The notes under the pieces were generated by a model. It saw only the letters and a program-made list of their open reading frames with translations. It had not been told where the DNA came from and did no database searches. The position numbers were made by a program, and so were the translations under genes. A DNA stretch of 64,000 bases, from positions 6,158,001 through 6,222,000 of the forward strand of contig JAGUCH010000006.1 of assembly GCA_019096065.1 (NCBI GenBank). Direction: 5' to 3'. The stretch's first letter is position 1, and each line of letters starts with the position of its first letter. Shown here in pieces: positions 1,912 to 50,966 of the stretch. The DNA comes from Paracyclopina nana (Eukaryota; Arthropoda; Copepoda; Cyclopoida; Cyclopettidae).

Positions 1912-4900
1912 TTATTGGCACACTTTGCACCAGAAGACTGGCTGGCACTTTTGCGAGCACTTCTCCGTCTTGGCAAGGCTCGAATTTGCGCACTTTCGCC
2001 TCGGCATCAGTCGGCACTCGGTGGCCACAACATTTTTGCATTTCCTTTGGGGCTCAGTGCGACACTCGATGCGAGTTTTCGTCCGACATCGCGCTTTTGG
2101 AGGGATTAATGCTCGCTCGAACGTCGCACACCTCTCGCGAGGCACCTAAAAAACATACCATGCGATAAAAAGAAAGTGAAATCGTATACCAAAAAATAAT
2201 GGCCATAATCGGCTGAAGGACATGACTTGATTTCTTCACCACGCAATATGGGGATGAAAAGCTACCATACTTATTCCAAATAAAGGGCTCCTCTTAAGAG
2301 CATTTTCAGCGGAACATTAGATTACAGGCAATGTGCAACCTATCAGCTTTAAAAGCATATTTAGCCTTAGAATTCCGCTATGAAATTCAAAGAAATGTAA
2401 ATCTATGATCTAGTACAGCTCTGAGCTAGTAGTCTTTTTTAAGACGGAACATTTTCATTTCTATCACTCAACCTGTAAAGGGAACTCAAAATTAAAGGTT
2501 AATATTCATCGGAACATTTCTTGTAATAATCGCGCAACCCATCGGTAACACCAATAGATTTTACCTAAGAATTCCATCTTGAAAAAGTAAATACGCATGT
2601 GCAAACTTTGATTTTAAGAAATCAATGCCAATATCTATTGAATGGCCAACCTATTCTTAGTATTAATAGTATTTTTCACCTTGCGACATTTTGTTTGCGG
2701 AAAATCCTGGCAGTTTTCCACCGGCTTTTCTTGGCACTCCTGATGCGGAATGGTCATGCACACCTTCTTGTCTTGGTCAGTGCATTGTTCCTTGCACAAG
2801 TTTGAGCATTCCGTTTTCATCACCATTGAGCACTCCTCGCGGACCACAGGATCACATTTTTGAACCATTTTCTCGCGCGGCACAAATCGGCACTCCTGCC
2901 GTTTCTCAAGCTTGCAATCTTGCCTTGGCAGCTTGAAGTCGATCTTGACGCAAATCTCCTTGAGCGACAATGGCATCATTTGCGTGCCACAGTCCACAGT
3001 GGGCCTCTGCACGGGCACTTCCACGCACTTTTCGGTGAAGGCTCGCATCTTCACCTCCTCGCACACCTCGCGCTCCACAGGCCTTGGCACGAACCGGCAC
3101 ACCCTCTGGGCGTCCGGGGGAGGCGGGGCCGAGGGCGGGGCCTGGGGTGGGCCTTCCACCACGTCGCATTCCACCTTCTTGTCAGGCTTCTCCACGATGT
3201 CACACTCCATCCGGATCTTCTCCTTGCACACCCTTGTGGCCTTTTGGGTAGGGATGTCCACGCAGACCTCATTCTTGACCTCCTTCATGACAGGTTTGCA
3301 CACCTCTTTTTTCACCTGGAATCTGGAATTGAATTTGCTTGCAGGCATATTTGATTTTGAAAATTACTTGGGTGCAGTTCTTGGTTGGAGTGTACTGGCA
3401 TTGGATGGCCGGAGCCGGAGTCGTGGAAGGTCCATTAGCGTAGGTCGGTGTGGGCGAAGGTGGCAAGTACGATCCATAGGTGTATCCAGAGTTCTCTGCC
3501 AATGACTTGAACGGGTTGTCAATGCCCGGATGCCTGGTCCACTCGGCATCTCTTTTGTTAACCAACTTCTCGCCATATTTCCTCGAGGCTCGTACGGGTG
3601 GCAAGATTTGAGCTTTAGGTACTCCATATGAGTAGGATGGCAAGTCAACCGGTGGCTCTCCCTGATCCTCACAAATGTACTCGAAATCTTGCCTGCACTT
3701 CTCCTCCCAAACCTCGTGACATTCTTGCTCGGTTGTATTGGTGACAAACTCTTTGCACTCTTCCACAGTTTCCTCAGTGATGTCCGCGTCGCACTCCTCA
3801 TAGGGAACCGGATTGCACTCCTTCACCAGCTTCGTGGTATTGAGCGTTTGGCACTCCCTTTGGAAGCAGATTGGAGGCGGGGCAGTGGGAGGGGGCAGGG
3901 TGGTGGAGGGCGTAACCATGTCACACACTTCATCCATGGCTTGATCTGTGACGTTGACGCAAATCGGAGTTTTCACCACATCCTCAATAATTTCACACCT
4001 GTAAAATTTTTTGATTTCTTAAATGATTTATTTCTCGAAAGATTTTGTTTTTTCAATAATTATTGGGAGACATGTTTGCCGATGAATTTTCCCAACGTGA
4101 ATCCGTTGACCGGTTTAGACGTCTCGAAAATTTGAGATAATTTCTGGTCGGGATGCAACATTCGGCCGTTGTTGGGATCTTGCAAGCCGTGGCGCTTGGC
4201 ATATTGCCAGACTTTCTTGGTTATTTGGGCTCGGGTGCCTTTCTTGATGCCGCAAATCTCGGCCAGGATCGGGTCCAAGACCAGCATTTTCCTAATGCCT
4301 TCGCCTTTTGCCATTTTTGTCCAATTTTTTAAATCACGGAGTTCTAACCGTCGCGAGTTTTTCACCAGTTGTGATTTCGCGAGAAAAATATTGCAGCTTC
4401 GCGAGATAATTTTAATTCTTGTATGCGGAATATTATAAGTCATGAACCGATTAAAACTAACTTATATCACACCCACTTGGGATGGCGCCACTGTAGAGTG
4501 GGAACAAAAATACCAGAAGTATTTGCTTTGCTTTTTTGGCTTTTTTGAATTGGCAAAAGCCAAAATTTTATCTCGTACGCAATTATCGCTTAAACAATTG
4601 ATGTTGATGTGGCCCATACATAATAGTTTAAGGTTAAAAAGGAAGTGTTTTTGGTCGCGAAAATTACTAATTAAAAGAGATTTATGTTACTTTGTTTCCA
4701 TGACTGGTTTGGTGATTTCCCGGCAGTTGGTTTGAGGCAAGGTTACATTGACCGTTTCGCACTTGTTCTCCCAAACGTCGTCATACATGGTTTGGCATTG
4801 CTCCTCCTCAATCGTGGTACACTCCTCATCAAACCTGAAAAAAACTCATTCAGTATTGCTTTAACATTATAATCTTTATTAGGCAATCACTTTGTTTCCT

Positions 4901-12379: not shown

Positions 12380-13653
12380 ATGTTCCATTTTGGCCGTAAG
12401 AAGGACAAAGAGGAAAAGGAGAAGCGGAAGAAGGACAAGAAGGAGAAGCACAAGCAGTTCATCGAGTCGATGACGAGCGATGAGCTGTCCAGGTTGGACG
12501 AGCTCCGGAGGAGCTTCACCACCTCTGGAGGAGCTGCCAACGCCAAAGACAAGTTGCCGTCCGGAATCACGGCAGACTACCGCAATTTGACCCTTCCGGA
12601 CTCGTCTGGAGCCGAGTCATCTTCGAGCTTGAGCAGGCCCACGTCATTGAACTCAGAGGTAAGCCATTTTACTTGATGAGCGACAGCATTTTCGCTAATG
12701 GTGCATGGCAGTCTCATATTCATTTACACTCTGATGTTGGGTTGAGCTGCTTGTAAAAAATAGCTGCACATATTTGCTTTTCCTTCAATTCATCATGGTT
12801 TTTTTCAAGGCTCCTCCGCTGCCAGAGAGGCCACCACCAAAGATCCAGAAGAAGAGCATTTTGAAGTCATCCACCAAGTCGTACGACGTGACGAGGTCGG
12901 TCTCGAGTGACCTCGACGACTCCAACATACTGCTCAAGAACACGAGGGACAATGAGTACATCAATGTTTACCGACGAAGCTTGATGAGCCCACAGAAGAG
13001 CTGCAGCAGTCCATCGTCTTCGGCTCACAGCAACGACGACTTTGCCGACCGTGATCTCACCTACGAGGTGGCTCAACCCACCATCAAAGTCCGGGTGCAT
13101 TCGGATCACGTGAGCCCGGTGAGTCCGCCACCATTGGCGAAAGCGCTGTCACCGATCAAGGCTTCCGCTCTCAATGGGGAAAGTGTGGGGGTGAAGCAGC
13201 GACCCATGTCGGCCAATTTCCCCCTGAGCTTGCCATCGTTGCAATGGAGCGAGGACGACGAGGCCGTGCGTGAAGTCAGTGCCGAACTCGTCGCTCCAGG
13301 TGACTACGGATTCCACATCAAAGAGAGCTTGGTCAAAAATAGACCCGTGTGGCTCATCGAGTCATCATTGCCTTCTTCAGCCATGCCAGCCTCCTTTGCT
13401 GTCGGCGACCAACTTGTGGCTGTGAATGGTGTCAACGTCCAGGGCATCCTGGACCGCGATGAGGTGCAGAAGATGATCAAGACCTCCAATGCCACAAGCC
13501 TATCTCTACATGTGAGTATATATTTTTTTCGGTTATGCCCAAGTTTGATAACAATTTAAATCAAAGGTCAAATCCAGTCGTGAATGTGTGGAACTGGCCA
13601 AAATCGAAAAAACAGGCAGTGATGATGGATCGAGACGGAAAAACACGATGAAG
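12380..13653 (+). CDS. Myo18: Myo18 N-terminal module: KE-rich start and PDZ domain (three exons)
   Basis: The first exon starts MFHFGRKKDKEEKEKRKKDK, the charged KE-rich opening typical of the long myosin-18 isoform. The second and third exons carry a PDZ-like domain: AELVAPGDYGFHIKESLVKN, PASFAVGDQLVAVNGVNVQG (the GDxLVxVNG signature), DRDEVQKMIKTSNATSLSLH and then VKSSRECVEL. A proline-rich stretch (APPLPERPPPKIQKKS) sits between. The last exon ends NTMK|GTAGGA in phase 0, so it can join either the alternative exon at 26537 or directly the motor exon at 37833. Confidence 0.88.
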
Positions 13654-16600
13654 GTAGGACACACGCATTTTTCTTCTTCCTTGAACCGAGATTGTAGCAT
13701 TTTCACTTTCATCTCCGAGCGCTCAGCTGCGTCTATATTCTGACACCACAATGCCAATCTCCCATGATGCATTCATTTCATATTTTTGCTTAAAATTCAG
13801 GTTTTCATATTATAAAGCCAAATTTGATTTTGGCACTAAATCACAATGGGGGCCCTTCCTGAAATCTTGATTTTTCTCTCTATTGTCAAGCATAAGTTAA
13901 GCAGAAACAATGGAAGCTGATGTTCACAATAATACAGAGCCTTGAAAAAATCGGTTTCATAAGCCAATTACGTGGGGAAGTGTTTCAATATGAGGTGAGC
14001 CATCATCGCCAAAGGAAATTGCCATCCTGCACACGTGCTCCATCTGTTTTTAGTTACGTAATATTGATTTTCGTCTATTAACGAATGAAAATCTCGCATC
14101 CTCTTTTAGCTATTTATCTCAGTCACGTTTCGTGCATTTTGCGAAGTAAAATCGCAAGAATCATAAATAAGGCTCATGCAGTTGAAGTATTTTTCATGCA
14201 ATTGGCTGTGTGTGTGTGCCCATCCACTTAACGTTAGGAAAACCTTTTTAGAAGCAAGCTTTGCCATCATCTTGACGGTCCTTGGCACGTTCTTTTTCAT
14301 AAAGGTAAAAAATATACCTGATAGCATACACATGCTTAGAAATAGGAGGAAATGCATATTTCTTCTTTTTTGAGCTCGGAAAACGCACAGTGGGCTAATT
14401 TGGCCTGAAACAGCTGCCAAAAATTCGTGTTGTACTTCAAAAAATGTGTAGTGTTCTCAGTGTGAAAAAGTAGCTCGAGAGGAAATAATAGCTCTTTTGC
14501 AAGTACATTTCAACGACTATGACCTCCGTGAAGACGAATCTTGATCCTCGATTGTTATCTGAAGCTTCATTAAACCTTAGTAGCTCATTTCAGTCCATTG
14601 CAATTGGCAATTTAGCTAGAAAAACAATCTTCTTTGAAACTTTTGTGCTGTCACGAAACGAAAATTATTTCTGCTCGTGCTCAGCGTACTTTTACATTCT
14701 GTGTGGTCTGAATTGACACCACATTTACGTAACCCTTCAGGAAAACTACGATTTTTGTACGGCTAAATCAAAGCTACCCTATGGAAAGGTTTTCCCTTGA
14801 ATCAAGAACCGTTTTTATCCCAAATGAGTCATGATTTTCTCAAGACCTTGCTTTAGATCTACATGCAGTGTGCTCCACCGAATAAGGTGAGATCAATCAA
14901 GTCTGCAATTTTCTATACAAGATGATGGTTGCAATAGGCGTTCTAATGATGTCCACATTACCCGTAATTTTGGCCTTGAGATTGGCAACAGATCCCAAAT
15001 TGAGATTCATTTTGAAAAATTGTGACTGTACGTAGTAAGAGAGTGAGTGCAAATTGCATAATAGTCGTAGTAGTAGTAAATCCTTTGCCAACTCGTTTTA
15101 TGGGCTACTTGATAAGCCAAAAGAGGCACAATTGATTATTTGCCACCTCACGTTTTGTGCTTCCTGTTAAGGCTGAAAAGTATCAGATTTCATTACTTGG
15201 CTCCTTTTAAAAGTCTCCTAAAAGAGATGAGTGTAATATGGAGCAGATGAGCAGAGCACATGAGATTCCATCTGCATTTTCACGGATCATTTTCCATCAT
15301 GGCCATGAATAAGATTTGGCTTCAAAAACGAGGTCACTACATATGAAAAAAATATCTTATCGTTTACGAGTGTCTTGCAGCTAAGTGTGGGTGTTTTCTG
15401 CGCTTTTACATCGACTTTTGTCCATGCTTTAGACAGATTGTCGGAAGTCGCATTTTCTGCCCATAATTTTTTTGGGTGGAAAAACCTCAAAAAAGGTGCA
15501 CTGTGGGCGTTTTTGCTGGATAAAGAGTAAACAAAATGAGAGGAAATGCTGAATTATCTAATGTCGCCTCTGGGGCAAAGATGGCGGTTCTAAAGTAAAA
15601 TTCTAAGTCCGTGGGAGACGGATGATGAAAAATAGAACTTTTCTGGCGTACCGTGATGTACGCTAATTTTGGAATTATGTCATGCATCTTCATCTGAAAT
15701 TGATTGGTGCGAAACTCGCACGCATGACGTGGCGCCACCTTGCGGTGATAACATCTACATTTCCTATATTTTGAATGCGTAACCTTCTCACAATCAAAAA
15801 TATTATATTCAATTTCCTCGTTAATTGCTTTGATTGAGTGTGGAGTAAAAAGTCGTATTTTTCGCTTTATTATCATTACTATTATCACAAGTAACATGAA
15901 TGTAATGCGGTTTTATGGATATGGCACCGCAGGCAGTATAGCAAAAGAGTTATCGTACACTAAAAGCATCAAATGGTCAAATTCTGGCAAGAAACGCCGC
16001 TTTGAAGAAATTTTGGTTTTCAAGAATGAAATCTCGCGTGAATCACAGCAAAAACTGATGGCCGTTCAAGGAGTAAAAAGCAGCCAAAACAAGTGAGGCT
16101 ACCAGTGAGTTGAATTTCATTGTAGTAGTAGATCTTGCTGCAGATGCAAGGCCATGCTCTTGTTCATAGAGGGCGTGGTTGATGGTCCTTAATAAGGGGA
16201 AGGTGGGGCCACCGCACTTTCCCCGGAAGTCATCCGTGTCAATGGACCAGGTCATGACCCCAGCCAGTCCTTGGGTGTAGGCAAAATTGGTTTTGAGCCT
16301 GATCGACTCTTGGTTGTCGTAGGACACCCATTTCTCCTTCTTGTACATGTAGGGGGCCTTGTGGCTGTCCTCCCACTCCACAGTCCACGACTCGGTGTCG
16401 TCAGTGTCCATCAGCTCCTCGCAGATCTCGTTGTAGCCAAGGAAACCATCCTCTCGCGTATACGGACCCTGAAATGAAATTGCGTGGTCATAAATTATCC
16501 GGTAGATGGCGCTGTGTCTATGGCTTCGAAATCAAGTCCACTGTTTCAGGTAAAAGTTCTTTCTTTAACATTGCCTGCTCATGTTATTTTTTGTGCAATA

Positions 16601-19600
16601 GAATTCATATTTTGCCTACATTTTTCGCATTTGTTTTTTAATCAAGCTCGGACCAGGCTTGAGTCCGACTTAAATTCGGGTGAAAAATACAGGGAATAAT
16701 CCGAGTTTTCCTACCTGGAACGAAGTGGTCTTGGCTCTCGCGCCCATCTTGTTATCGTGCGGGTTCATCAGGCTGAATGCGCGACCGTAGAGCGGCACAC
16801 CGAGCACAGTTTTCTCGGGCCTCGCGCCCTTCGACATCAGGTACTCAAGCGTGTAGGCCACGTTCAAAAACAGATCTTGGCCTTTCTCGCGGGGGCGCGC
16901 GTACAACGGGGCGTTGTGGCCGGTCAACTGGTCCCACTTGCCGTGGTAGTCGTAGCACATCACGTGGACAAAGTCCAAGTACTTGTACATTTGCGGGATG
17001 TCGTAGGAGACGTCGATGGTGGGCGCGGCCGCGCCGATGGCCGCTGTCAAAAGGTAGCCGTGAGGCCGGAAAGCCTCCGACAGTTCTCGGATGAGGTCGA
17101 TGAAGTGCTCCTTGTCCTCTGGAAGGCCGCCACGTTTGCCTGGGTATTCCCAGTCGAGGTCAAGGCCGTCAAAGTTGTACTGCTTGCAAAAGGCCACCAC
17201 GCTTTCGACGAACCTTTTACGCCTGGCAGGATCAGCGACCATTTCCGAGTACTTTTTGCTTCCCTCGTTCCACCCTCCAATTGCTATTGTGACCTTGAAA
17301 AAAGCAGAAAATGAGTCAGCTGATTTGACCAGTATGCCTTTATTAAGAGAAAAAAAGCAGCCAGCTAATGCGTCAGCTGATTTTTCGTTAAGCTCCTAAT
17401 TTGACTAGTGTGCCTTTGCTAACTTTTGGCTCTTTCTGAACAAATCTAGTCAGCTGATTTGAGCAGTATGCTTTTGTTTACAAATGGATCATAACATTGT
17501 TAACATCTGGTAATTTTAAACAATGCCGACTTTCAGCTGACTTTCGACTAGTATGCCTGTTAATATACAATTATGGTTGCCTACCTTGAGATGAGGATAA
17601 GCATATTTGAGATCAGTGGCCTTTCTGAAGCCTTGAAGGCCATAGCCTTCCTCCAAGTCCATCCATGGGTCCAGGGGCTTGATGGCATCCTTCTCGGAGT
17701 CGAGGCCAGCGAAGCTGTAGATCAGGTTGGTGCACAGGCTGGGGTCGATGTCCTCAGGGGTGAACTTTCCGTCTTTGGGCCTGTAATTGGCCCATGTGCC
17801 CCAGTAGCAGACGACCCTTTTGTTGTGTCCTTTCACTGTGTACTCTTGGGTCATCATGGAGTTGTCATCCCTGCCCGAGGCCGAGACAACGGCCAAAAAG
17901 GCCGCGGATAAGAGCACAAAATGCATAGTAGTCTCTGTGGGCAAAGATGGGTGTTGTAGATGCGGAACTAACACACTTGTCCTCTTGGGTAGGTTTCACT
18001 TTTCATATCCAGTTGATTTTAGGTCAGCACAAGCAGGTGAGTCAGGACACAAAGTGCAACTGAGGCTGTAGTATAATCCAACTCTCACTGTCTGCCTGGA
18101 CACACTGGGGCTACAGCCATCAAAAAACCCTGGCTGAAAACCAAACAAAAAATTATGTAACGTACTTATGTAGTGTTGGGAGGATTTCGAAAAAACTGCT
18201 TTGTTCTGCTTGGAAGTCCAGTGTGCACGGGTGGATAGTATATAGACTATCTTATGTACCTTAAATTCTGAGTACGCGCGCGCGCGCGCAATTCCAAAAG
18301 CCTTTGTTGCTCGGGGCTTTTTTGAAGCTTGGTTCTTTTTGATGGCATTACTACTTCATACACCCAACAATGTGGTACCAAAACTAAAGAAGAGGAACTT
18401 CAACAAAGCCAAGAATTTTTGGGAGGGTTGATTAAATATGATTTTTGGCTGTAGTTATCGTTATTGCATCAATCCGTTATTCAGGCTATACTTTCGCCAC
18501 CTTGGCCTGTAAACTATGTAATTGTAGAAAACTTTTCAAACTTCCTCGAGGAGACACAGTGGTTTTTCCTTTGTTCCACTGTGTGCTCAATTATTCTGCT
18601 GCTGGCTAAAAGTTGAGACTCATGCGGTTTCAGAGGTCAGGAGAAACTTTTTCTCCTCCTGGCATCTTTTAGGACACTTTTATTGCCAACCATAAATGAT
18701 GCATATTATAGCTGTTTACCCTAGAGAAGACCTTGGAAGTTTGTGAAGTCATACTTTAGGGTGGAGGTTTTTTTCTATATCCCACATTTTCCAGGAAAAT
18801 CAGATCGTTACCGAGATAATGAAGGGCATTATTTTAACTGTCACTTGATACAATTGTCCCTGCAAGCCCTTACTTTTCCTTACCGAAAAATGGCTGGAAG
18901 GCAATCGGAGTTTTCTTTGTCCTTTTGATCATTTAGAGTTTATTACTTTTCGAACAAAAGATTTGCTCGTCTGTGAATTCGAGAGCCAAGCTTATTTTGG
19001 TTCGATTCATTATTGCTCTGTAGCATAATTCTGCGATCGGAGCATGATGAAATTATTGCAAGGCGTGGCTGCTCATTTTGAGCATGTCACTGTGCTGACT
19101 ATCTTAAAATATTAAAAAGTTGTGTGCATACGTCTAGTCACCTTGAAAACCTGGTTTCTTTCATATCTGTATCCCTGTTATTGCAATCTCCCTGAAAGTG
19201 GATGTCTAGAGCATTAGGGCTGACATTCAGGAAAAAATAGTATTTTAGCCTTAATCATTGAAGGGTGACCATTTATTGGAATAGAGCGTGGGCAGATGAA
19301 ATCGTTGAATAGCTGATGGAAAAATGGAGTAACCTAAGGGTAGCTTTTCTATTCCGAGCCTGCGAGAGTGATAATTTATTTTTGAATTGCATTAAAAAGT
19401 CCATTTCCTTGCTGAGCTTGCGTTATACTGAGTGGAAATGCTGTGTGGTACTTTCAAATTTTTCCTGTCACGCCTGAGCTTGAGCATTATTGTACTGGAT
19501 GATTCATGACGGAACAAATACGTTTTCTCCTCTCATGTCAGGAACATATTCATTAGTCGCATTGCCATCATCGCGCAAAATAATGCTTCCTCATTGCATT

Positions 19601-25600: not shown

Positions 25601-28600
25601 GTGGATCTTGATGACTCAGAAGAGGACGTCTTCGTTGCCACCCAACTTTGACAACGATCAAGCCATCCATTCCAAGCAGAAATATAATAACAATAATGAC
25701 AGGCAAGCCAGAATTCGTTTTTCATTCATGCTGCAGTAATGAGGCAGATTTATATCTGAGGAAAAATGTTGCCAAAATGCAGATAGGAATCGCGGACATT
25801 AGTCAATATCATTTATTTGCTTTTTGGGTCATCGTCATAATAACCCCATTTATTACAGTCATTAGGACAGCCTTGGGCTTTATTTTTATACGTTTATGCC
25901 ATGGCAGGTGTTTTTTTACGATCTGTGTACAATGGTGATGATGGGTCATTTACCTCTCAAAATGAGGTCAAGATTAACGAAAATGATGAAGTTGGGTTGC
26001 AGTTTTAGCCTTAAAAAATTAAAAGGAAGGAGTGAGGTTGACATGGCTGGCTTTTTGACGGAAAAAACACTTGTTCCATCACTCGTTATCTCTCCACGTC
26101 CTTTTTATGTGCTCGTCTGCGTAGATAAATAAGAGGGGCTCGTCCGCGTTGCGAGGGGTAATAATCACGAGTACACTAAGTACACATGTGAATTCCACTC
26201 GTATGCTCAAAATATTTCCACATGAATGTAGTTCCTGAATAAATAAAAAAATGTTACCCTTGCCTTGGGGTATTTTTTTCGCCTTCACACAATAAAAGAA
26301 GCATCAGCCTCGGAGGCTGAAACTTTGGTGCAGAAGAAGGCTTGACAAAGTAAACAGCCTCAAAATGAGATGTAGCCCCAAAAATTGACCCTTGGGGCAT
26401 TTTTCGCCCACTGTGGCGTCATGACGTTGTAGGAATGATTTCAAAGCGCTTCAGCAAAGTTGCGCGCTCAGTTGGCCGACGAGCTGCTTTAGTCGGCCGC
26501 GTCATGTCGTCCCGATAAGTGTTGAAAAGCATCAAGATGCCGGTGATTTTTGGCTCTTTTGAGACCTCGCTGCGAGGCCAGGACTCCCCGAGGCCAGACA
26601 GGAAAGTGCTGCACAAAGGCTGCTCCGGACATTTGCACGGGCATGGAGTGAAAAAAGAACGAGCCTCGAGGACGCCCGAGTTCAAATTCAGCAAAAATTG
26701 CTGCAACGAGGAGGGAGGAGGCTGCTCCTCGAGCGACGAGGCCCAGCCTCGGAGGTCGCAGTCCTCGGAGTACACGCGCTTCTCCACTCCCATCACTAGA
26801 CGCTCGACCTCGTCCAATTCAGCCGTGGCAGAGAGGCTGTACAACTCGCCCACGAAGGCCACGACAGCCAAAGTGCGAGCCGAGAGGACGGCCTCGGATG
26901 GCCTCAAAATGGCGGCTGATTTGCACGGCGGCAGCGGCGCGAATAATGTCCACTACAACAGTCTTCCTCGGAGACTTAAACGATCGGCGAAAAACGGCAG
27001 CGCTGAAGAAGAAGACTCTGGTCACTTTAGCAGCTCTGAGGACAACAACGAGTTTTTGGCCAGGCATGTCGTTGACCTCGTCACGGGCCATGCCAATCGA
27101 AAGCAGAACTTGATCCATGGCACCTCAGATGACGAGCTCTCCATGGAGGAATTGCGGAGAAAGCAGAGGCAAGAGAGGCGGGATTATCTGCAGCAGAAAA
27201 CGCGAAGAGAGTCCCCGTCCCCCGTGAAAAACGGAGAAAATGGAGGCCGAGGCCGGAGGTCGTCTGACGAGACCTCCGATTCCTCCTTTTCGCCTCCGGC
27301 CTCGCCGACTTGCCGGTCAGCCTCGAATAAAATGTGGGGCAGCAGGTCTGCGGTGGCGAGCGGCAAACCGAGGCCCCGGTCATCTGGCAGCAATAGCTGT
27401 GCGTACGCTTTTGGCTCGAGCACCAAAAGATTCCTGGAGGAAAAGAAGCTGCCCAAAATGATGATGAGCCCATCACCAGAATTGGGCCGCACTCTGAGTG
27501 ATCCAAGAAATGGTGGACCGTTGAGCAGGCAGCATTCGCGTGAGAACAAGCAAGAAATTGCCAAGGCATGGCTCAGATTCAAGGAAGACATTGAGGCTGC
27601 CATGCAGAAAAAGCCCAACAGTGGCTACTACAAGGATTTGGCGGACATGATGACCACCAAAATGGAAATGCTCAACGATGAGAAGGTAAATGAAAGTTTG
27701 ACTGACGCGTTTCGATGCGTACATGAATGGGTCGTGTTGCACGAGTTTGCATACATTTAACCCTAATTCTTGGGCAATGCGAAGGCTCCAGATGATCGAT
27801 GTGCTCCAGCACGTTTTCCAGCTCGAGCGTTAATAAGGCCATTTCGGCCACCAAAATCGATTTTCAAGCCGTCGAAATGGAGCACACTTCTGTTGCTGGC
27901 TAATGCGAAACCCTTGAGATCCCAATTCGTCATGGGCCATTAAAACACTTTTTCTTGTCGTCGCCGCGAAACTTTTGTCGTCTTCGCCATATGTGTTTCA
28001 TTACGGTGTAATTGTTTGTGGCCAATTCATTGTGTGTGTGAGTGGAGGTTCTTTTCATCTGAGTGGGTGGACATGAAACAGATAATGAGCTCTGGTGGTC
28101 TTCTTTGTCTGCAGGTGCTGGCATCACCTCAAAAATAGGCCCCTAAAGAACTATCCGTAAAAACCCTCGTGATTCGTGAATGTGCTGACTTTGCTGAAAG
28201 TGTCAATATTGAAAGTTTGTTTCTTTTTCCACCACTTTCTATTTTCTTTGGCGAATGAACTATTGCAAAATGTACGATTCAAGCTTTGTCAAAACATGCT
28301 TGGTGTGGCCACCATGTGGGAATAATGCTTGTGCTGTTGTTGTTGTTGTCTGTGAAAACAAAGTGTTAGGGATACCAGCTAACTCATCATGAGCATAAGT
28401 GAATGAGTGATGGACCCACATGTGAATTTTTGTAAACAAAAAACTGGTTGATTTTAATTTTTTCAAATGCAATGCTACCAAATGCTACATGAAAGGATTT
28501 GCACAGAGTCAAATTCAGTTTCTCTTGGCGGATGATTTACGATAAGAAAATGTGTGACTGTAATGACCTGCTGCGAATTGGGGTCTCAAGGGTCGCTCAT

Positions 28601-31600
28601 TGCTAGGCAATGCATGTGTTCTCCATCTTGCTAACTCGTAGCTCATTATTGGTGGACACAAATGAGCTTATAAACACCTGGGCTGAAAAACTCGAGGAAC
28701 ATACTACGTAGATCATCAGCAGCAACGCAAAGCCACACCCACCTACTATAGCAAAGATGATGATGATCATGCGTTGGTTAAATCTATTTTTCGGCCATTT
28801 TTTCTCAGCTGTGGTAGCAACTTGGTTGCAAAACTTGCTGCTCCTCTATGAAGGCCCACACATGTTTTGGTTGTTGTTTTTTTACCCCTCAAGTGCCAAA
28901 GCATGACTTTCTACTTAGCTCTCCCACCTTATAAGCAAACTGTATTTTTCCTTTGAAATATTTCATCTCTTGACACTTTGATTTTTTCTGCCAGACCCCT
29001 GCCAATTCTGCTTGGCAATCTATGTAAAAAAAGGCTTTTTGGGGTGTGTGACGTCTGATCATGAGTTATGGGAGTCCATAATTTGTTTTCTCTCTGTCTC
29101 CAATTGTTGTCTTGTCTCTGTCCATTTGCAAATCTCCTTGCTATTTATTGTTATCTGTCAAGCACGCTACCAACAACACGAGACAATCTGCCCACGTGCT
29201 CATGTGCTTATCGAAATTTGGACAAATATTGGCAATTCCAACGTTGCCAAAATTCGTGCCTCACGAGCCATCTTTTTGTTTTAAGCTATTTTAATTTTTC
29301 TCACGAATTTATTTTTTCCTACTTCGTTGAAAACAATTGAGTATGACAAATTGGGAGTGAAACAATGGCGTGGTAATCATCAGCAATCCTTGCTTAGCCA
29401 GCCCACTTTGATTTGGGCATATTTGCAAGCAGATGACCGCCCCCACAAATCGTTGTTTGGCTTAATTTGTTATTTATTCAAAAACTTTTTGTGGGAGCTG
29501 TCTTTTCAAATTACCAGTTTTTTGGTCTCTCCTAAAATAGCTGCAGGCAAAATGTTCCTACACACACTGACTCAACATGCTGAAAATCATGAAAAATTGC
29601 CCCTTTTTGCCCCCACTGTGGTGTTTGTAGTTAAAAAAAAACAGCCATTCCTCGTCGTTGTGTTGTAGGTATTTTGTGGAAAACAGACTTTACTATAATT
29701 GGGTAGTAAACAGAAAATTTTTGCTGGCATTGATCACGTAGGCGTGAAAACTTGAGATTCTTGTGACGTGGGATGAGAAGAAGAATGGATTGGGTCATTC
29801 CTCTATTATATGCGCAGTGGGCGTGTCACTGTGCTACTGGACAATGCGACACTCCATATGACATCATTGTACTCGATAATGAGCCTTGGCCTCTCAGAAT
29901 AATTTTCATTATGATACTGAAAAGCCCAACCCCATTCCATTTTTCATGAACATGAAAATCACGATGGACGACATCTGTCAGAAAAAGTGAACTTCCCAAA
30001 ATAATTTGCCCACTCTTGCCCTCATGATAACCTTGAATTTTTCCTCTCGCGATCACATCATGATGAATTCTCATTATTCCATTTATTTTCAATTTCAGGT
30101 AAGCCGCAAATTTCTGCGTTAAATGCGCATGTGTCTGGATAAGTATGGTGGGAAAAGTGTCGTTTTCTGTCGTGATGCCTCGAAAATTCTTATCTCTTCT
30201 TGTTTTCGGCACTTTTTGTGCCAAAATGGCCGCCCCGCTTTCACCCTTCCCCATTGACGATGATCTGGCTTTTAAGAATGTCGTGAGGGGTTTTGAGAGC
30301 ACGATTTCTACTTTGATCAGAGATGCATTTGGGAATGATAGTGGAATGTTTTTATGGACAAACTTAATGAAGCCTTTTGGCGTGATAACCAACGGAACCG
30401 CGCGTTCAAATCTCCATCCGACCACTTTGAAAAAGTAGAGCTCAGAGTGTAGCAAAAAAACACCACTTTCATTTCGTTACACTGACTGGAAATAATGGAT
30501 CCTTTATGGCCAAACTGGGATAAACACCAAGATAATTTGACCCCTGTGCATCAAAACACTTCCCTGTATTCACTCTTGTAGAGGTCAATTTTTTTGGCTG
30601 CACGCTTCAAAATGTGCGTGCAATCAAAACAGGATATTTGCAGCGTTGGAAAAAATAGCCATGTTGACTAATGCGGTGGGCTGAAATTGAAAGCATTTGA
30701 GCAAAGTTTGAAGTTAGGCCCACAAATATGACACGCAACCTTAGCAGCGGCTATTCTTATTATAGGCCTCATGATAGGCATAATCTTCCCAATTTGGAGG
30801 AGTCGACGAATTTTGGTATGCAAAACGATGCTGCCAAGCTTACGAAGTAAATTGTTGTGTAATTGAGGAGGTTTTTGGAAGAAAGAACAACAACAACTGG
30901 TTTTTTCCCCTCCTCCTCCATCTTTTTAACTTGACTTCATTTGCGTTGGCGAACTTGGCAAAAAGCATAGCATTACTTTTTGGTCAAATCTTATAGTATT
31001 ATCATGTCAAAATATCAGCTAATGGTGGAATACTCTCAGCATGATATTTGAGTGTTTTCAACGCTCATTACCAAGATTATGCCGGGAAAGAAAAAAGCAT
31101 TCTTGAGCATCATCATCCACGTTATTCATCATGATCCTAATTGAAAATTGCCCTTTCAATGTAAGGAGAAAGTTTTTTTTCAAGACCAGAAAAAAGGACT
31201 TGTCATGTGGGGAGGTCTGATAAGATAGCTAGATGAAAATGACATTGGCATTTCCCAACCCTAATTAGGGTAGTCATAACAGTTAGTGCTTCGAGAGAGA
31301 AAAAAAAGCGTAGTAGAGATCGTAGACGTGAATGCCAAATGAGCCAGCATGTTCCGGTCATTTGTACGGTAATTTCTCAGTCCTCCTCCTGCAATTAAAA
31401 TCCGCCCTACGCTGAACAAAAAAGGCCCCACCGCTGCCACCCATTCGAATTCCTGCACGTCGACCTACTCTACAAATTTAGGGCTAGGGACAAAATCACC
31501 CAATAGCACACAACAATAATGGTCAAAAATGGCTTCCTGGCTTTAGACTACGATTAACAGGCCCATTTTGAGCCGATAGATACATAAAGGAAGCAGGTAA

Positions 31601-37600: not shown

Positions 37601-40600
37601 ACATATTAGTGGCGCTACTTTGCACTATTCAACTATGTTTTATCATTGCACAGAGTCTCTATTCATTCGAATAGAAGAGCACCATCGAAATTTAGGCCAA
37701 AAAAAGACTTGTCAAAAAAGTAGTGCCATAAACCAGGTAGCTTTTACAATCTACACAAGATTTCATATTAGATTAATTTAGTGTATAGACATGACTTTAT
37801 TAATAACTTTTCTTCTTTGTTTCGCTTGACAGGCCAAATCTGAGGACCAGCTTGAAAATGAGCAGGCTTTTCTGGAAGCTGACCGAGTGTGGCTGGTGCA
37901 CCGAGATGGATTCGCGGCTGCTGGGCTCCTCAAGGACAATGCTGGAGAAGGCATGGTTCGAGTCCAGCTCGACTCCAGCGGAGAAATATTTGACGTAATT
38001 ATCCCTTTAATCAGCTCATTTGTGAAATTTGAAGACGCTGCAATATTTGCTTTCCAGGTGGAAGAGGACGATGTGGAACTGGCCAATCCTCCAGGATTTG
38101 ACAAGGTTGAAGATCTTGCTCAGTTGAGATACTTGAACGAGTCCTCCGTGCTCCACGTGCTACGTCAAAGATACGGCAACAATTTGATCCACACCTACGC
38201 TGGCCCCTGCATGATCAGCATCAATCCGATGGCCAACTTGGCCATCTACTCCGACAAGATCATTGACATGTTCAAGGAGTGCCAATTGGAGGACATGCCC
38301 CCGCACGTATACGCCGTGGCCAACACGGCCTACCGAAGCATGTTGCGTACGCGCAAGGATCAATCCGTGGCCATGATTGGCAGATCCGGATCCGGAAAGA
38401 CCACCAACGCTCGCCACGTGCTCCAGGCGCTGATCCTGAGCGGAGGCTGCCCCAACAAGTCCATGAGCGTGGACAAGCTGAGCGCCATCCAGACCATCCT
38501 CGAGTCCTTTGGCCACACGAGGACCATCATGAATGTCAATGCCACGCGCGTGGCCTCGCTCTTCAGCCTCGATTTCGACTCATTGGGACACATCGTCTCC
38601 TCTTCGCTGCAAACCATGATGCTCGAAAAGTCCAGGGTCATTCGAAGGCCAGAGGGTGAGCCGACCTTCAACGTCTTCTACCAACTCTTGGCCGGCCTCG
38701 AGGCTGGCCTCAAACGCGAACTCCACCTGGACAACCTCAACGAGCCCAACTTGTTCATGACTCCGCTCACTCGGCTGGAGGACAAGTCCAAGGCCAGCGT
38801 GACCTTCAGCAAACTTTGTGTGGCCTTCAAGGCCGTGGGCATCAGTGAGGCCGAGGCCAAGGCCATTTGGTCGGTAATTGCGGCCATTTACCATTTGGGT
38901 GTGGCCTCTGTGACTAAAGGCCCGATGAACCGGACGGCTTTTGCTCGGCCTCAGGCCGCGACGAAGGCCGCCATGTGCCTGGGCACGACAGTGGAAGACC
39001 TCACCAGGATCATCTTCCAGGGCAACACGAGCTCAAGCACGCTGAGTCGGAAGTTGAGGTCGGCCGACAAGGAATCGGCCAATTTGCCCGATGGCATCGA
39101 GTCCCTCGAAGGCTTCGTCATGGGCCTCTACCAGGAGGCCTTCAACGCCGTCGTCTACATGATTAACCGGTCCATTTCGACGACGGCAGCCGCGAGCAAC
39201 ACCATCTTCGTGGTGGACACGGCGGGCTTTCAGAATCCGGCCACGTGTGGTCGCATGGCTGGTGCCACCTTTGAAGAGCTCTGCCACAACTACACCAACG
39301 AGAGGCTCCAGCTCATGTTCCACGAGCGGACCATCGCCTCACTCTACGAGAAATACACGCAGGAGCAGGTGGAGTGCGACATGCTCGCGGACATTGAAGA
39401 ATTGCCCACTCCGGCCCCATTGGTAGCCTTGATTGACAAGCAGGCCGGCGTACGGGTCAGCCAACATGACCTGGCCAGCGCGGACCGGCGCGGCCTCCTT
39501 TGGCTCCTGGACGAAGAGGCCATTTTTCCAGGGGCCACGGATGACTCCTTTGTGGAACGGCTGATGCTCCAGTACAACCAGAGGGGCAGTGAAGATTTGC
39601 TCCGCCAAGGACCCGTGGAGACGAACAAGAAGCAGTTTGTGCTCCAGCACTTCCAGGGCACCAATCCTGTCCTCTACAACGCCGAGGGCTGGCTGCAGGC
39701 CTCCAGAGAGGACGCGGCCGTAAGGGCAGCCGGACATTTGCTCCAGGAGTCGAATAAAATCAACGTCTCCGATTTGTTCCTCACGAGCCGAGGACCGATG
39801 ACGTCATTGTCTGGATCTGTGGCGGGGCTGGAAGGCAGCCATGGACTCCGGAGGATGTCCTCCATGAGGAGAACCTTCACCAGTGGGCAAGCTGGCATTA
39901 AACGCAACTCGGTGGCCTTGCAGGTCAAATTCCAAGTGGATGGCCTTTGTGAGCAGTTGCGAAGGACCAAAATCCACTTCGTCCACTGCTTCCTCCCGCA
40001 ACACTCGGCCGGCCTTTGTGACATTAAGGCCACCAAGGGCAAGTCCTCGACTACATCATCCTTGGCCATGGAAGAGGCTGTTCTCAATTTGCCTCTAGTC
40101 AGATCGCAAGTACGTAAAATTGAATCTAAGCCACAAAATCTGCTGCATTGATTTTTACAATTGTAAAGCCTTAAGGCTTTCTAGAGGTGGAAATCTTGAA
40201 ACCTTCATAATTGTCATGAGATATGGGATTTTTGTCAATGATGGTCATTTCTTCCATTTTTCCAGCTAAGAGGAGGGCAAATTTTGGATGCAGTTCGATT
40301 ACATAAGAATGGATATCCCGAGAGCTTGACCTACGGCGAATTCTGGAGACGCTACAGAATCATGTCTGAGGAGATGCAAAAGCGCACCCCGGCGCACACC
40401 GAGCTCAAAGAGGCCGTGGAGGATCTGCTGGCCGAAATGGAGTTGGACAAGTCCTCATTCCGGATGGGCAGCACCCAGGTGAGTTTTTCTTTAATTTCAA
40501 GAATTTAAAGTCTGGTGTGGAAAAAATGAGACTTTTTTTTCATCAGACTACACTAGTCTTATCACCCCTTGTATCTTTGGGTCTTTCAACTACTTCTACT

Positions 40601-43600
40601 TTCTCGTCAGTGACTTTCATTCACGCTTGTTGACCCACACTGGGGAAAGTCAACATTGAAAGCAGCTTTCTGTGGGGAAATTTTCGAGTCCAATTCGCCC
40701 CATTGTGACCCTGTTGTTCACGGGGGCGGATAAATTTGGACGCGACGACATTTTCTGTTGTTGGCATTCAGGTCAAAATTGCGCTAAGAAATTACGTTTA
40801 AGTGAACAACTAGCACAACACACATTTTGATGATATCATGGTCAATGATGATTTATGGGAATTTCTTCTGGATGGATGCTCAGCACGAATTTTCCCGACG
40901 TCATTGAGAAAAAAGATTAATTTGTCACATGAACAACAACAATAACTTTAAGGGCTTAAAAGAGTTGCCGAGCAAAGATTGTTTGCCTTATAAATGGCCT
41001 TTATTGCGTATAGAAAATAAGCCATTGAGTACTCATTTTTCGGTGATGGTGGAGGAAAAGTCTGTTGGACACTGTGTACCGCTGATTGTGTATAAAAATC
41101 GTTATTTTGCCGAAAAAATCTCAGTTTGACACGAAAAATGGAAAAGATTTGCCAACTTTGTGACTGCACATTTTTCGGTGACGGGGGAAAAGTTTGTTGG
41201 ACACAGTGTACAACTATATGCGAAATCCGCGCGGCTTTACGCGCGCATCAAGCTCTCGCGCATTTGTCAATGCGGTCACGATGAGCACGCACTGAGAAAA
41301 ACGAAGAGGAAAAAGAATCATGGAGGGAAAAAATTGAAAAGAAGATGATGTTGGCTAGCAGTAACGGAGTAACATTTTTGGCGGCCTCGAGCTCGCAAAA
41401 AAGCATGAAGAGGTCACAACGCGCGGACTCTCCTGGTTACTTCACTCTCAGCGATTCCGATGGAGCTTCCAATCCCGATCGGGATTCATCTCTGGAAGAA
41501 GACAATGGCTGCTCCCCACCAAGATCTTTGGTGTACAAGATGTGTTACAACCAGAGGAGTCGCAGTGAGCCTCCAATTAGTGCCAATCATCATCACAACT
41601 ACGTGCGGGTGGTGAAGCCAAATATTGCCTCCAATGAGGCTTTGGTGGATCAGAATGCTCCTCCAAGACCACCTCCACCCTTGTCATACGCGTCAACGTT
41701 GCCACCTCTGCCAAAGAAGGTGGGAAGCGTGATGAAAAAAAACAAGAGCAAAATTGTCACCAATTCTTCTTCCTCGTCAAGGCCAATTTTGCAAAGGGTG
41801 CAGCCATTGCAAATCCAGTCACCATCAATGATAAGCATGGTCCTCAATCCTACTAAAACCACGCAAAAGACCAGATCCACTTTGAGCAACGCGGAGGAAG
41901 GAGCCATGCCAAAACAGCAGCCTCTGCTGTCAAGCAAGGCCAATCAAAGGCCATTGTCTTCGAACGAGCCTGTGACCTTTGTCAAGGCTTTCCAAAAGGC
42001 CAATGCAAGTTTGATGGCTGAAGATATTCCCAAAGCAAGGTCAGCTAATTTGAAGAAAAAGACATCTGAGCAAGGCCAAAGTGGTCTTAATTCACAGCCA
42101 GGGTATTTGAGGCCGACGAAAAATGCTGTTTTCAGACAAAACTCTGATAGCAACGTGAGAAAAGTAGCTAGTAGCAGTGATGACCGAAGGCCAAAAAAGG
42201 CCCGAAGGTCAGCCTCGACTTCCAGTGATGATTCTTCCATTATGGGACAAAAGAAATTGGATGTGAACAAGAAAGTAAGTGAAAATTGTAAGGGAAGCAG
42301 CCTTGGCGCAAAAAAGGCCATGAATGAGACGAAAAAAGGCCAGCAAAGGTCGTCGCCGAAAAGTGTGCGAAAAAAGGCCAAAGAAGAAGAGGAGGAGGAA
42401 GAAAACGTTGATTTGTTCAAGAATCCAATTCACAGCCTCATCAAGTTCTATGAGGAGGAAACTCAAGAAGGCCATAAAAGAAAGGCCGAAATTGACAAAA
42501 AGCAGCCTGTTGTGCTAGAAGATTTAAATGCTGCAGAGAAAAATTCCAGATTGTCCTCCAGTTCATGTGTGACCAATTTGAGCCAAATCAGCCAGTTGAG
42601 TGCTGACAAAATCCACAACTGGTTAAACAGCCCCATCATCGCACCAGACAAGGATTTGAGCGTGACTGAAATCAGCATTTTGGACCAATATGTCACTGAC
42701 ATGATCAGCTTTTCCAGTGGCAAAAAATCATCTGAGGCCATCACGGTGATTGAGGACGTCCAAACTCCATCTGAAGAGGAGTTGAGTCGTGGAGTCTTCA
42801 CTGAAGTCTCCTTTGCTGGAAATGTCAAGCAAAAAGTTGCGAAGAGGGAGAAAATTGAAGTGAAGAAAAGTCAAGATATGAAAAATGGCCCAATTCCTTC
42901 ACCAAGGGTGAAGAAAAAGGCCAGAAAAGAGCAAATGCTGTTGGAGCACAAGGAAAAAGGTCACCAGGCCTTGTCCTTGGTGATGAAACAGATCAAATTG
43001 GTAGATGATGTTGATGATGATGGCCTCCAATGCCTCAATGATTTATGCACCCAAAGTCAATTTGTGGAGCAAGAAATGCAGAAAGAGCAACAGTCTCATG
43101 ATCAAAGTCTGTCAAAAAAGGTAGGAGGATATGAATTGGATTAGCTCACACTGGGACAAAAAGGTGCTGAAAAAAAAAAATAGATATCTGTTTTTATTTT
43201 TAGGGGTTTTTTTTGGTGGCTATTGGTATTTAAATGAGTTTTGGGCGGGGATTTTTTCACGCAAAAGCGGATACAATTTCAGTTTTCGTATGGGGATTTT
43301 GGCACCATAATGATATGCTATTCAAATTTGCTTTATAAATGGTTATTTGCTTTTGGCATCATCAACTTGCTCTGATGGTGCAGTGAAAATGCACATAATT
43401 ATTTACTAAACAATGGAGATGAGAGCTTTTTCATAAATTGAATCGAGGCAATAGACTTTTTGTGGTTACTGAGCTGTAAAATGGGCTTAGATGTATATTT
43501 GAATGACAAGTTTGCCATAAAGCTCAACTTAGGGCGTGGCCTGTCTGTAAAAGTAATGCAAAGCCAAAATTTGTTCAGTACAAAAAATAGGCATATTGAT

Positions 43601-46600
43601 GATTGTCTTTTCCACTTTTGACTATGATAAATCATCTCAAGGCTCAAAGTAGCCAAAAATGTCATTTTGGGCTTTTTTCAACAATTTCTGACCATATTTG
43701 GGAGCTGTCATCTGGGTGAAGCTTTCCTGTCCATTTTTTGTTTACTTTTTTCATTTTATTGCTTTTATTGACGCTCAAGCGCTTGTGTGGGAGTTGTCAA
43801 CTCAATTTTAGGCATAACCAGTCCAAAATCTCACCAACTTTCTACTACTAGCTCACATGTCCACATGTGGGAAAGTGCACTTTACTGCTTAAAAACATAT
43901 GCGCTCAAGTCATAACGGGATAATAATCCATGATGAATTTATGCACCGACAACAAGACGTCTTCGTGTGTGGTTATTGTTGCGTTGCCATTATCATTGTG
44001 GCTTTTTTCCTCGAAAACTATTTCCTCCTCTAAGCAGATATTTTCTTCTTCTTCCTTTAATTTTCTAACCTATTTAATGAGCTGTAAAAGAAACTTTTTC
44101 ATTTTCCTAACTCTAAGTATCATCATTTTGACAAAACTCATTGAGGAAAGTCTCAAATTTCTCTAATTACAAGTGAAGGAGTGAGACTTGAGGAGGTAAA
44201 ATTATTCTAGCATTTTCCTTTTTTCCATTCAGTGTTTTGCTTATTAAAAAAGTTATCATTGGCGCGATAGGTTATTTTGAAATTGTGGCTGGTACCAAGC
44301 AGTCTGCCATTAAAATGAACGGTTTTTCTGTCGCGCCTGAGTGTCTAGACTTGTTTTTTTTTGACAATTTGCCACAGTGGTAGGTGTTGCTTGATCATTG
44401 CAACTATCTGCCAAACTTCCTTTGGTGAATTGATTGCCTTCTGGAATGAAATCTATTTTCTCCCACAACATAGCAGTAAATTCGGCAAAAACATGGAAAT
44501 CTCATCAAGTTGCTGCTGCAAAAACAGGGAAATTGACACCACTCCAGAGATGGTGATTAGCTGGCTAGCAATTTCTATTTATTTGCCAGAGCTTTGTCAT
44601 TTTCAAGGCTCATTCTCATTATTGGAATTGCATCACTGGAGCCCCTCCTCACCAACTCAAATCTTGGAGTCACTTTCTTGACCTTAAAGATTTCAATCTT
44701 GTCATCCTGTCAATATTCATTTTTGTTTTGTCTTTTGAAGATGGGCGAAAAGAATTCCACTTTCTCTCCTTTTTTTCTGCTTTGATCAAAGCAATGCTTA
44801 TTTATGCAGAATTTCATGATACAGCTAATAATAGCCCGCCAAAATCACCTTTTTTAATTGAATTTTGCATCAGGGGGTGTAATATGTTATAAATGACAAG
44901 ACTGAAATTGTGCACGTGTCGTTCTTACAAGTTTCCCGCCGTCGCTTCTTAATGCATGCAATTGATAAATGGATGGAAATCTTCCGACTATTAAAACTAG
45001 TTAATTTACTCCTAATAGCCATGCCATCATTTGGTGAATTGCGTTTCTCAAGATAAAGTATACTGCGTTAAAAAAGTGGCCATAATACAAATCAGTTCAA
45101 AATGTTTACAATTCTTGCAGTTATGTCAGCTGACGCGCCACGTACGTGGGTGCGTCTGCACAGCGTGCCGCGCCATGACAACCATACCACTTTTAAGCTT
45201 GTTGATCATTTTAAAATTGACGAAAGTCCCTCTTTGGCAGGACGCGTCGTGCTCTATTCAAAATGGGCAATAATACGAGATTGCCAAAAAAGCAGTAAGG
45301 AATTTTCTTAAGCTTGCATCATCAGTTGGCTCGCTTGAAACAAAGCAATTCATAATTGTTAAAAAGCTTTTTAGGAATGCAAAGAACTGTGACCAATTAT
45401 GGCTTTTTATGACAAGTCCCAGTTATCATTGGAAATGGAGTGAAAGTTGGACTCTTTTGTCACGTCTTCTTCTTGGAATTGTGAGAAAAAGATGATCCTT
45501 GAAATGTTCAAAAGATGGATGCATGACGATGTGTCTCCATAATTATTAGAATTCAAGTGGAGCATAAATCAATGGATTTCACTTGATGGATTCTTTTGTT
45601 GTCAAATTTCAGGTTTTCCTACGGGCTGGAGTATTATCACACTTGGACGAGGAGAGAGAAGATAAGCTCCGTGATCAAGTGGTCCGCCTACAAGCCGCAT
45701 GTCGTGGTCATTTGGCGAGAAGACAAGTCCAAAAATTAAAGGTTCGTTATCTGCGCCCCTTAATAAATTTCATTACTCAGTCCGCGCAGCTGAGTGTGAT
45801 CTGAAAAAAATCGCACTCTTTTTTCACTTCACACATTTGTGGATACTATACATTAGGTTTTTGTTGAACATATAGTTTGCTTTTTTAGGGGACATTTCGC
45901 GTAAAACTAATAAGAACATCCGTTTGTACGAGACGTTGCAGTGCTTCACGCAAACGTTTGTTTTAAACAATTACATTAGAAAGCCTGACACTTTAGTCTT
46001 CCATGCATTTATTTATTTCACGTGACATTATAAGGAGAAAGGGTTATATGTAGTCATTTGTTCGGATCAGACTCTACGCTCAATATTGCAAATGAACAAC
46101 GCAAATTCATTCAGCTGGAAGGGCTGGAATATTTTCTAAAATCGTGTGTGTGTCACGTGGTGTGACTTAATGGGTCGCGTTAATTTTGAAAGTGATTTAG
46201 CTGAAAATGCAATTTTCCCATTCTCTCACGCATTTCTTGCAAAGTGGAATTTTTGCAATTGCTGCTAATTGCTACACAGCTATTAGGCTCTCAAAATTGA
46301 CCCCAAAAGCCACAATTTCGATGTCTTGGCAAGTAGAAAATATGTAGAGTGAGTGAAAAGTTATGGGCATGTCACCCAATTAGGCCGATTTAAACAAGTT
46401 GTTGTTGAATTTCAGACCCAGGACATTGCCATCAGATGCATTCAGAAAAACGTGCGAAAATTCATGGGGGTCCGAGGTTGGCCTTGGTGGAGGCTGCTCA
46501 TCAAGATCACGCCCATGTTGAACGTGCATCGCACCGAAAATCAGCTCAAATCGCAAACAGTAATTATTATTCATGAAATACAGAGTTAAGTCACTATTTC

Positions 46601-49922: not shown

Positions 49923-50966
49923 GCAGCAAAAAATTGTATTTCCCCGTCTGTGATGAAGAAATGAAAAAGAAGAAGACGAACAAAAGTGCCCGTATTGACC
50001 CAAATAGGCTCGTGATTCTGAGATTGAGTGAAAATTCCTTTTTTACACTTGGAGCCAGTCAAGTAGCATCACTAACTATAACCCACACCCCATGTTGAAA
50101 CAAAAAATCCCCACCAGATTTTTTGAGTTTGTTTGTTCTTCTCGATTAGGGGCTGATTTTGAGGGCACACGAAAAATAGTCGTATAATACTAATGATAAT
50201 GCAAGTACCATAAACTGAATTGAGTCGATTTTGCTCTTTTCTTTCTGGTATAAGAAGCTACATACTACACACTGCATATAAATGGAAAAATTTGACTAGA
50301 ATGTAAAAGAAAAATAAACGTGATTATTTTAATAGGGAAACTATACCTCTACTACATGCAAGGAAAGGCCATTAAAGATATCCTCGGTTCACTCTCAAGA
50401 AACTCCTTTATTTCGGTATTATTTTTTTTTGTCACATATGAATGTGTGTGTGTATAATTTCGGCCTAATGAATGATTTATATCTTAATTCATAGCTTAAA
50501 ATGATGGTGAGAATATTGAGAATTGCAGGCATTTTTCGAGATCAATGATAAAAGCGTTATTTTACCAGTGGGGGACGAACCTAATAATATATGTTTATGA
50601 ATAAGAATGATTTTATCACTGGGTGTAGCATAGTTTTGAGTAGATCATGGGCGGGATATTTAGCTAGAAGCTTTCTATAATAGTAATACGCAATAATTAC
50701 CTCGCTATATACTTTTATAGCTGGCAACATCTGCCATTTTATAGCCAATTTCAAGGGTGGAAAAGGCCATTTGTCTTCGTGTATTGGTTTCTTAATGTGG
50801 TGCAAGGCAACTTAAATAGCTGGAATTTTTTGTAAAGCTTGTCTCGTATATACCTTTTTGTATTGTAGATGATAATTTGCCGTAAAGTAGCTGAGTATTG
50901 TTAAGGGGAGGGGCCAATACAGAAATTGTTTTTATCAGAGTGAATAGCTAACTTATGGTATATATC
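49923..50966. other. Convergent 3' region of Myo18 and the MDM1-like gene
   Basis: It holds the Myo18 3' UTR with AATAAA at 50313-50318 and, on the other strand, AATAAA (TTTATT at 50407-50412) as a possible end of the MDM1-like transcript. The two transcripts would then end about 100 bp apart without overlap. No coding region. Confidence 0.55.
50313..50318 (+). other. Polyadenylation signal of Myo18
   Basis: AATAAA on the coding strand, about 390 nt after the stop codon, followed by a T-rich stretch. Confidence 0.5.

Follow-up and report, generated by a model that had tools for sequence, protein, structure and literature searches.

A probable orphan gene nested on the same strand within a myosin-18 intron of Paracyclopina nana

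The window is a 64-kb stretch of Paracyclopina nana DNA whose + strand carries an animal myosin-18 gene (Myo18). Exon boundaries were drawn from frame continuity and splice sites, and the resulting sequence-based model (12380-49922) encodes a clean 2030-aa frame; the length of mouse myosin-18A alpha is given as 2035 aa in PMC7900500. The modelled protein has the domain order PDZ, SH3-like, motor, and coiled-coil tail that identifies Myo18. Pfam matches to Myosin_head (E 1.5e-108) and Myosin_tail_1 (E 1.5e-10) exceeded their cut-offs, as did the PDZ match (PF00595, 24.6 bits vs cut-off 23.2), and SH3_Myosin-XVIIIa scored 25.6 bits, under its cut-off of 27. The P-loop GRSGSGKTT is at residue 518 of the model. 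Among its least certain parts is the small exon 13567-13653, with an acceptor score of only 1.1. Nine of the 15 listed Myo18 introns (a list that omits the long introns ending at 37833) are 51 to 99 nt in size, and the gene has an AATAAA at 50313. A second start, ATG 26537, opens a 383-codon exon (26537-27685, + strand) with a phase-0 donor (AAG/GTAAAT) and CpG enrichment upstream of it, and joining it onward would give a 2057-aa Myo18 that lacks the PDZ domain. Judged by frame and phase, this exon is a probable alternative long first exon of Myo18; its product had no Pfam match at E ≤ 0.01.

Another Myo18 intron harbors a nested GH18 chitinase gene on the opposite strand (16043-17926, - strand). 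It was modelled as three coding exons encoding 448 aa, the middle exon matches Glyco_hydro_18 with E 1.6e-62, and an AATAAA is located 171 nt past its stop. Elsewhere in the window, an open reading frame (ORF) at 4063-4461 (- strand) encodes a SWIB/MDM2 domain (E 1.5e-21), with Cys-rich open frames to either side on that strand. Features of the intron between the motor and IQ exons are collected in Table 1.

Table 1. Coordinates of the host intron, the nested open frame, and associated features
Feature	Position	Strand	Basis or remark
Host Myo18 intron, motor to IQ exons	40479..45612	+	5134 nt; clean 2030-aa frame, motor and tail Pfam matches
CpG-rich stretch before ATG	41195..41344	+	CpG observed/expected 1.62; promoter-like, putative function
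Main coding exon, 592 codons	41345..43120	+	ORF length, frame-specific codon signal, composition
Predicted 83-nt intron GTAGGA...TTTTTATTTTTAG	43121..43203	+	donor/acceptor pair scans
Predicted last exon: nine codons, TAA 43231-43233, 3' UTR	43204..43360	+	translation, hexamers; end guessed
Myo18 IQ/neck exon	45613..45741	+	its acceptor is the target of the proposed headless junction

The host intron contains a stop-free run of 619 codons (41285-43144, + strand), or 599 codons counted from ATG 41345, and the ORF 41345-43144 lies entirely within this one intron. Among 300 first-order shuffled copies of the intron, the longest stop-free run had a median of 132 codons and never exceeded 229. Codon log-odds, trained on modelled exons and measured against intron sequence, were +0.175 per codon in this frame vs -0.05 to -0.40 in the five other frames. 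When the ORF was divided into ten blocks of 60 codons and one of 19, the signal was positive in 9 of 11 blocks, with values of -0.07 and 0.00 in the remaining two. The open frame is coding. Codon usage was also considered as a means of separating a nested gene from Myo18 and was rejected because the correlations were too alike (0.34 with the chitinase and 0.40 to 0.58 with four parts of Myo18, including 0.40 for the motor and 0.58 for the tail). The hexamer AGGCCA is over-represented relative to a second-order model, both in the window (57 vs 25.8) and in the ORF at 41345-43120 (12 vs 2.9).

Translated to position 43120, the ORF product has 592 aa, a mass of 65.6 kDa, a pI of 9.49, 14.5% Ser, and 11.1% Lys, and it contains two NLS-like basic clusters. 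Basic, rich in Ser and Lys, and largely of low complexity, it probably evolves fast, and the NLS-like clusters suggest that it is possibly nuclear. A search of the P. nana genome (92 Mb, 10 contigs) with the ORF as DNA or protein returned only the ORF itself at E ≤ 0.001. No matches were obtained with phmmer against PDB at E up to 10, and no Pfam family matched the whole protein or its C-terminal 252 aa at E up to 1 or up to 10. When only the N-terminal 300 aa were searched, KH_DTX3L (E 0.033; 14.5 bits vs cut-off 27.4) and Iec3-like_M (E 0.44; 12 bits vs cut-off 29.3) appeared; both are under their cut-offs and were judged to be chance matches rather than relatives. Pattern matches in viral and prokaryotic contigs numbered 600 and 579, respectively, and none was confirmed by tblastn. 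We use "orphan" here to mean that no relative was found in the PDB, Pfam, viral, and prokaryotic collections or in the species' own genome.

These searches also bear on the origin of the frame. With at most one intron in a frame that is itself within an intron, and with an 11-A run 25 nt past the stop codon at 43142-43144, the ORF could be a retrocopy, a transposon remnant, or a dying frame. However, the genome search at E ≤ 0.001 turned up neither a spliced parent nor a second copy, although a very diverged parent may escape it. Weak protein matches were limited to two, at E 0.118 and 4.64, and both appear fortuitous; unmasked tblastn on the fetched stretch did not recover the former at its place. 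The frame is intact across about 600 codons, and no repeat of at least 18 nt flanks it on both sides. Such an origin is therefore very improbable.

The 150 nt preceding the ATG are CpG dense, as first reported in the initial annotation; the observed/expected ratio in this stretch was equalled or exceeded in 89 of 6385 overlapping windows of 150 nt. The corresponding ratios upstream of the other presumed Myo18 starts were 1.88 and 1.23, and that of the chitinase was 0.14. An Inr-like TCAGTTTG is found at 41121, upstream of the CpG-rich stretch. The CpG patch suggests an independent transcription start, which would fit a nested gene and an internal Myo18 promoter alike. The previously noted direct repeat is also present, with copies of about 50 nt at 41026-41079 and 41161-41211 (+ strand) that are 132 to 135 nt apart. 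Both copies, read in the ORF frame, encode FFGDGG(G)KVCWTxCT, and a DNA search of the species' own genome placed the repeat region 41026-41211 at a single location. The second copy lies inside a 48-codon Cys-rich upstream frame (41138-41284), which is closed by a TGA before the main ORF. Five ATGs, from 41138 to 41320, precede the ORF start. Since the TGA at 41282-41284 is in frame with the ORF, the acceptor of a cassette exon would need to be 3' of it. No acceptor scoring at least 2 was found from 41285 to 41419, and inclusion of the ORF as a cassette exon within full-length Myo18 was rejected.

The ORF carries a phase-0 donor (AAG/GTAGGA) at 43120, 21 nt ahead of the in-frame stop codon; the coordinates, donor sequence, and phase given for the frame from ATG 41345 in the initial annotation were confirmed. 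With a model trained on the locus, this donor scored 9.59, which beats 13 of 19 modelled donors, ties one, and is below five. The tied donor, at 13653 (the end of the PDZ part), is an exact nine-base match, and dropping this twin from the training set lowered the score to 8.74, still over 13 of the 19 left-out scores. Sites reaching 9.59 in the window numbered nine on the + strand, including 43120, and ten on the - strand. When the codons of the ORF were shuffled 2000 times, 0.45% of the shuffles placed a phase-0 donor this good among the final 20 codons, as computed with the twin donor 13653 in the training set. The donor score and the shuffle test indicate that splicing at 43120 is likely. 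A donor as good as this one (42274; AAA/GTAAGT, phase 0) lies mid-frame, so a donor match by itself is weak proof, and the strength of donor 43120 fits a fusion to Myo18 and a short intron equally.

The fusion had been put forward as a headless Myo18, in which an internal promoter would drive a first exon ending at 43120 and spliced to the IQ exon at 45613, with the motor absent. The phases on the two sides agree (0), and the fused frame is clean, predicting a protein of 1457 aa, by a very rough estimate 165 kDa, composed of a basic low-complexity head, an IQ neck, and the coiled-coil tail. These parts of the proposal hold, and together with the donor, the CpG patch, and the lack of AATAAA described below, they make the isoform mechanically possible. 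The gene also has another apparent long alternative first exon with a phase-0 donor (26537-27685). However, 45613 had been taken as the next usable acceptor, which overlooked one at 43204 (TTTTTATTTTTAG/G), only 83 nt from donor 43120. This nearer site would give an intron of the usual length and close the frame after nine codons. Joining 43120 to 43204 yields a 601-aa protein ending GFFLVAIGI (SKKGFFLVAIGI), the nine-residue tail being too short for a coding signal. If the 83-nt intron is instead retained, the frame reaches TAG 43142-43144, giving 599 aa ending SKKVGGYELD. The ORF unit is thus complete without Myo18, whether this intron is spliced or kept.

Acceptor 43204 scored 11.07 with the trained model, exceeding 15 of 18 modelled acceptors (-0.2 to 13.5, each left out in turn). 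With a generic splice-site model, which uses approximate frequencies, it scored 11.9 (modelled acceptors, 0.2 to 12.1) and outranked every other acceptor between 43125 and 45613, including the IQ-exon site at 45613 (9.5). The trained model reverses this order, with 45613 at 13.5 when itself left out, a result that favors the fusion. Donor/acceptor pairs 45 to 160 nt apart at the score of 43120 plus 43204 (20.67) were then counted over the 64 kb; five were found on the + strand and none on the - strand. The five comprise three modelled Myo18 introns, which belong to the training set, the 43120/43204 pair, and 29986-30099. The last of these (+ strand) scores like some modelled introns and perhaps marks an unseen exon or a chance pairing. 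Sixty random first-order copies of the window contained 27 such pairs (0.45 each), or about 0.0004 expected per 60 nt. At lower thresholds, modelled introns were a minority (7 of 20 pairs at score 18 and 3 of 7 at score 20).

Donors of long introns (13653, 27685, and 40478) served as controls. None had an acceptor above 4.0 within 45 to 110 nt under the trained model. Out to 160 nt, the values were 8.7 (at 13801) for 13653, 4.9 for 27685, and 2.4 for 40478. Under the generic model, acceptors near these three donors reached 9.7, 6.9, and 9.6, respectively. Three pairs attained the 43120/43204 score with that model, namely, 43120/43204 itself and two from donor 40478 that are presumably decoys; no modelled short intron did so. 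Decoys near long-intron donors therefore do occur. In our judgement, 43204 is nevertheless less likely to be a decoy than a real site, and good sites lying near each other would be likelier to be spliced together than sites 2.5 kb apart.

The poly(A) signals point in the other direction. The stretch 43145-45612 contains no AATAAA, and an ATTAAA first appears only at 44243. The earlier statement that no polyadenylation hexamer follows shortly after the stop is correct for AATAAA but not for variant hexamers, which are present as TATAAA at 43334 and CATAAA at 43432 and 43516. TATAAA 43334 is a possible poly(A) signal of a nested gene, non-canonical at best. The missing AATAAA is the strongest point of the headless reading, although a gene nested on the host's strand might be expected to lack a strong signal, since such a signal would truncate the Myo18 transcript.

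Taken together, these data indicate that the ORF is probably a separate, same-strand orphan gene, with one exon or two, nested in the Myo18 intron and ordinary in kind. This reading is favored because donor 43120 has a strong acceptor 83 nt on, at the usual intron size. It builds on what was observed, namely, the coding frame, the splice-site strengths, and a genome search in which no second copy was found, and the CpG patch and the precedent of the nested chitinase gene add to it. Counted against it are the lack of an AATAAA after the ORF, whereas Myo18 and the chitinase gene each have one, as well as the decoys in the controls, the upstream ATGs, and the lack of a homologue in the collections searched. 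The gene would be driven by its own promoter upstream of 41345. Its transcript would consist of the 592-codon main exon with the 83-nt 3' intron, or with none, and its product would be basic, largely low in complexity, and perhaps nuclear. An orphan nested gene had been the fall-back of the initial annotation and fits best, with or without the predicted 3' intron. Like known same-strand protein-coding genes nested in introns, the ORF forms a complete coding unit in one intron with a promoter-like start region. It differs from them in belonging to no recognised family and in having a poly(A) signal that is at best non-canonical.

The headless Myo18 isoform is unlikely by comparison. Besides the competing acceptor 43204 and the comparable mid-frame donor 42274, the ORF product has no meaningful similarity to that of the 26537 exon (best E 3.3), and no tested feature links the ORF exon to the myosin tail. 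Both products could also be made, the nested-gene mRNA alongside minority transcripts that skip 43204 into the Myo18 tail. Acceptors 43204 and 45613 are both strong, and the exon can continue in an open frame through either one. Positive support for this dual output was not found, and rare read-through would be hard to distinguish from noise; we regard it as improbable.

Precedents for motor-less myosin products exist. Drosophila myosin rod protein and molluscan catchin are described as motor-less products of muscle Mhc genes (PMC3912159) and resemble the proposed isoform in placing a unique N terminus on downstream myosin exons. In those cases, however, the host is a muscle Mhc gene and the proteins have been described, whereas here the junction is predicted and a closer acceptor competes. 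According to the same source, rod-protein N termini are unconserved even among close insects and allow no reliable prediction without mRNA, so equal caution applies to the Myo18 ORF. Myosin-18A alpha, beta, and gamma are presented as N-terminal isoforms that all retain the motor domain (PMC7900500). They resemble the 26537 PDZ-less form in their varied N-terminal extension and differ from the proposed headless form, which would drop the motor. A full-text search of the literature collection used here found no paper on a headless Myo18A isoform.

If headless Myo18 is real, class 18 would have its own equivalent of myosin rod protein and catchin, a protein that would enter filaments or scaffolds while lacking an actin-binding head. 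At least three alternative N-terminal ends would then be available to the gene: one with the PDZ domain, a long one lacking it, and a basic, possibly nuclear head in place of the motor. Each of the latter two would have its own promoter and a long first exon of low complexity. This arrangement is doubtful. If the ORF is instead the separate nested gene that we favor, it would be an orphan left unannotated by the homology searches run here, and the Myo18 locus would hold two nested genes. Such a gene would be useful for annotation rather than surprising, and of moderate interest as an orphan.
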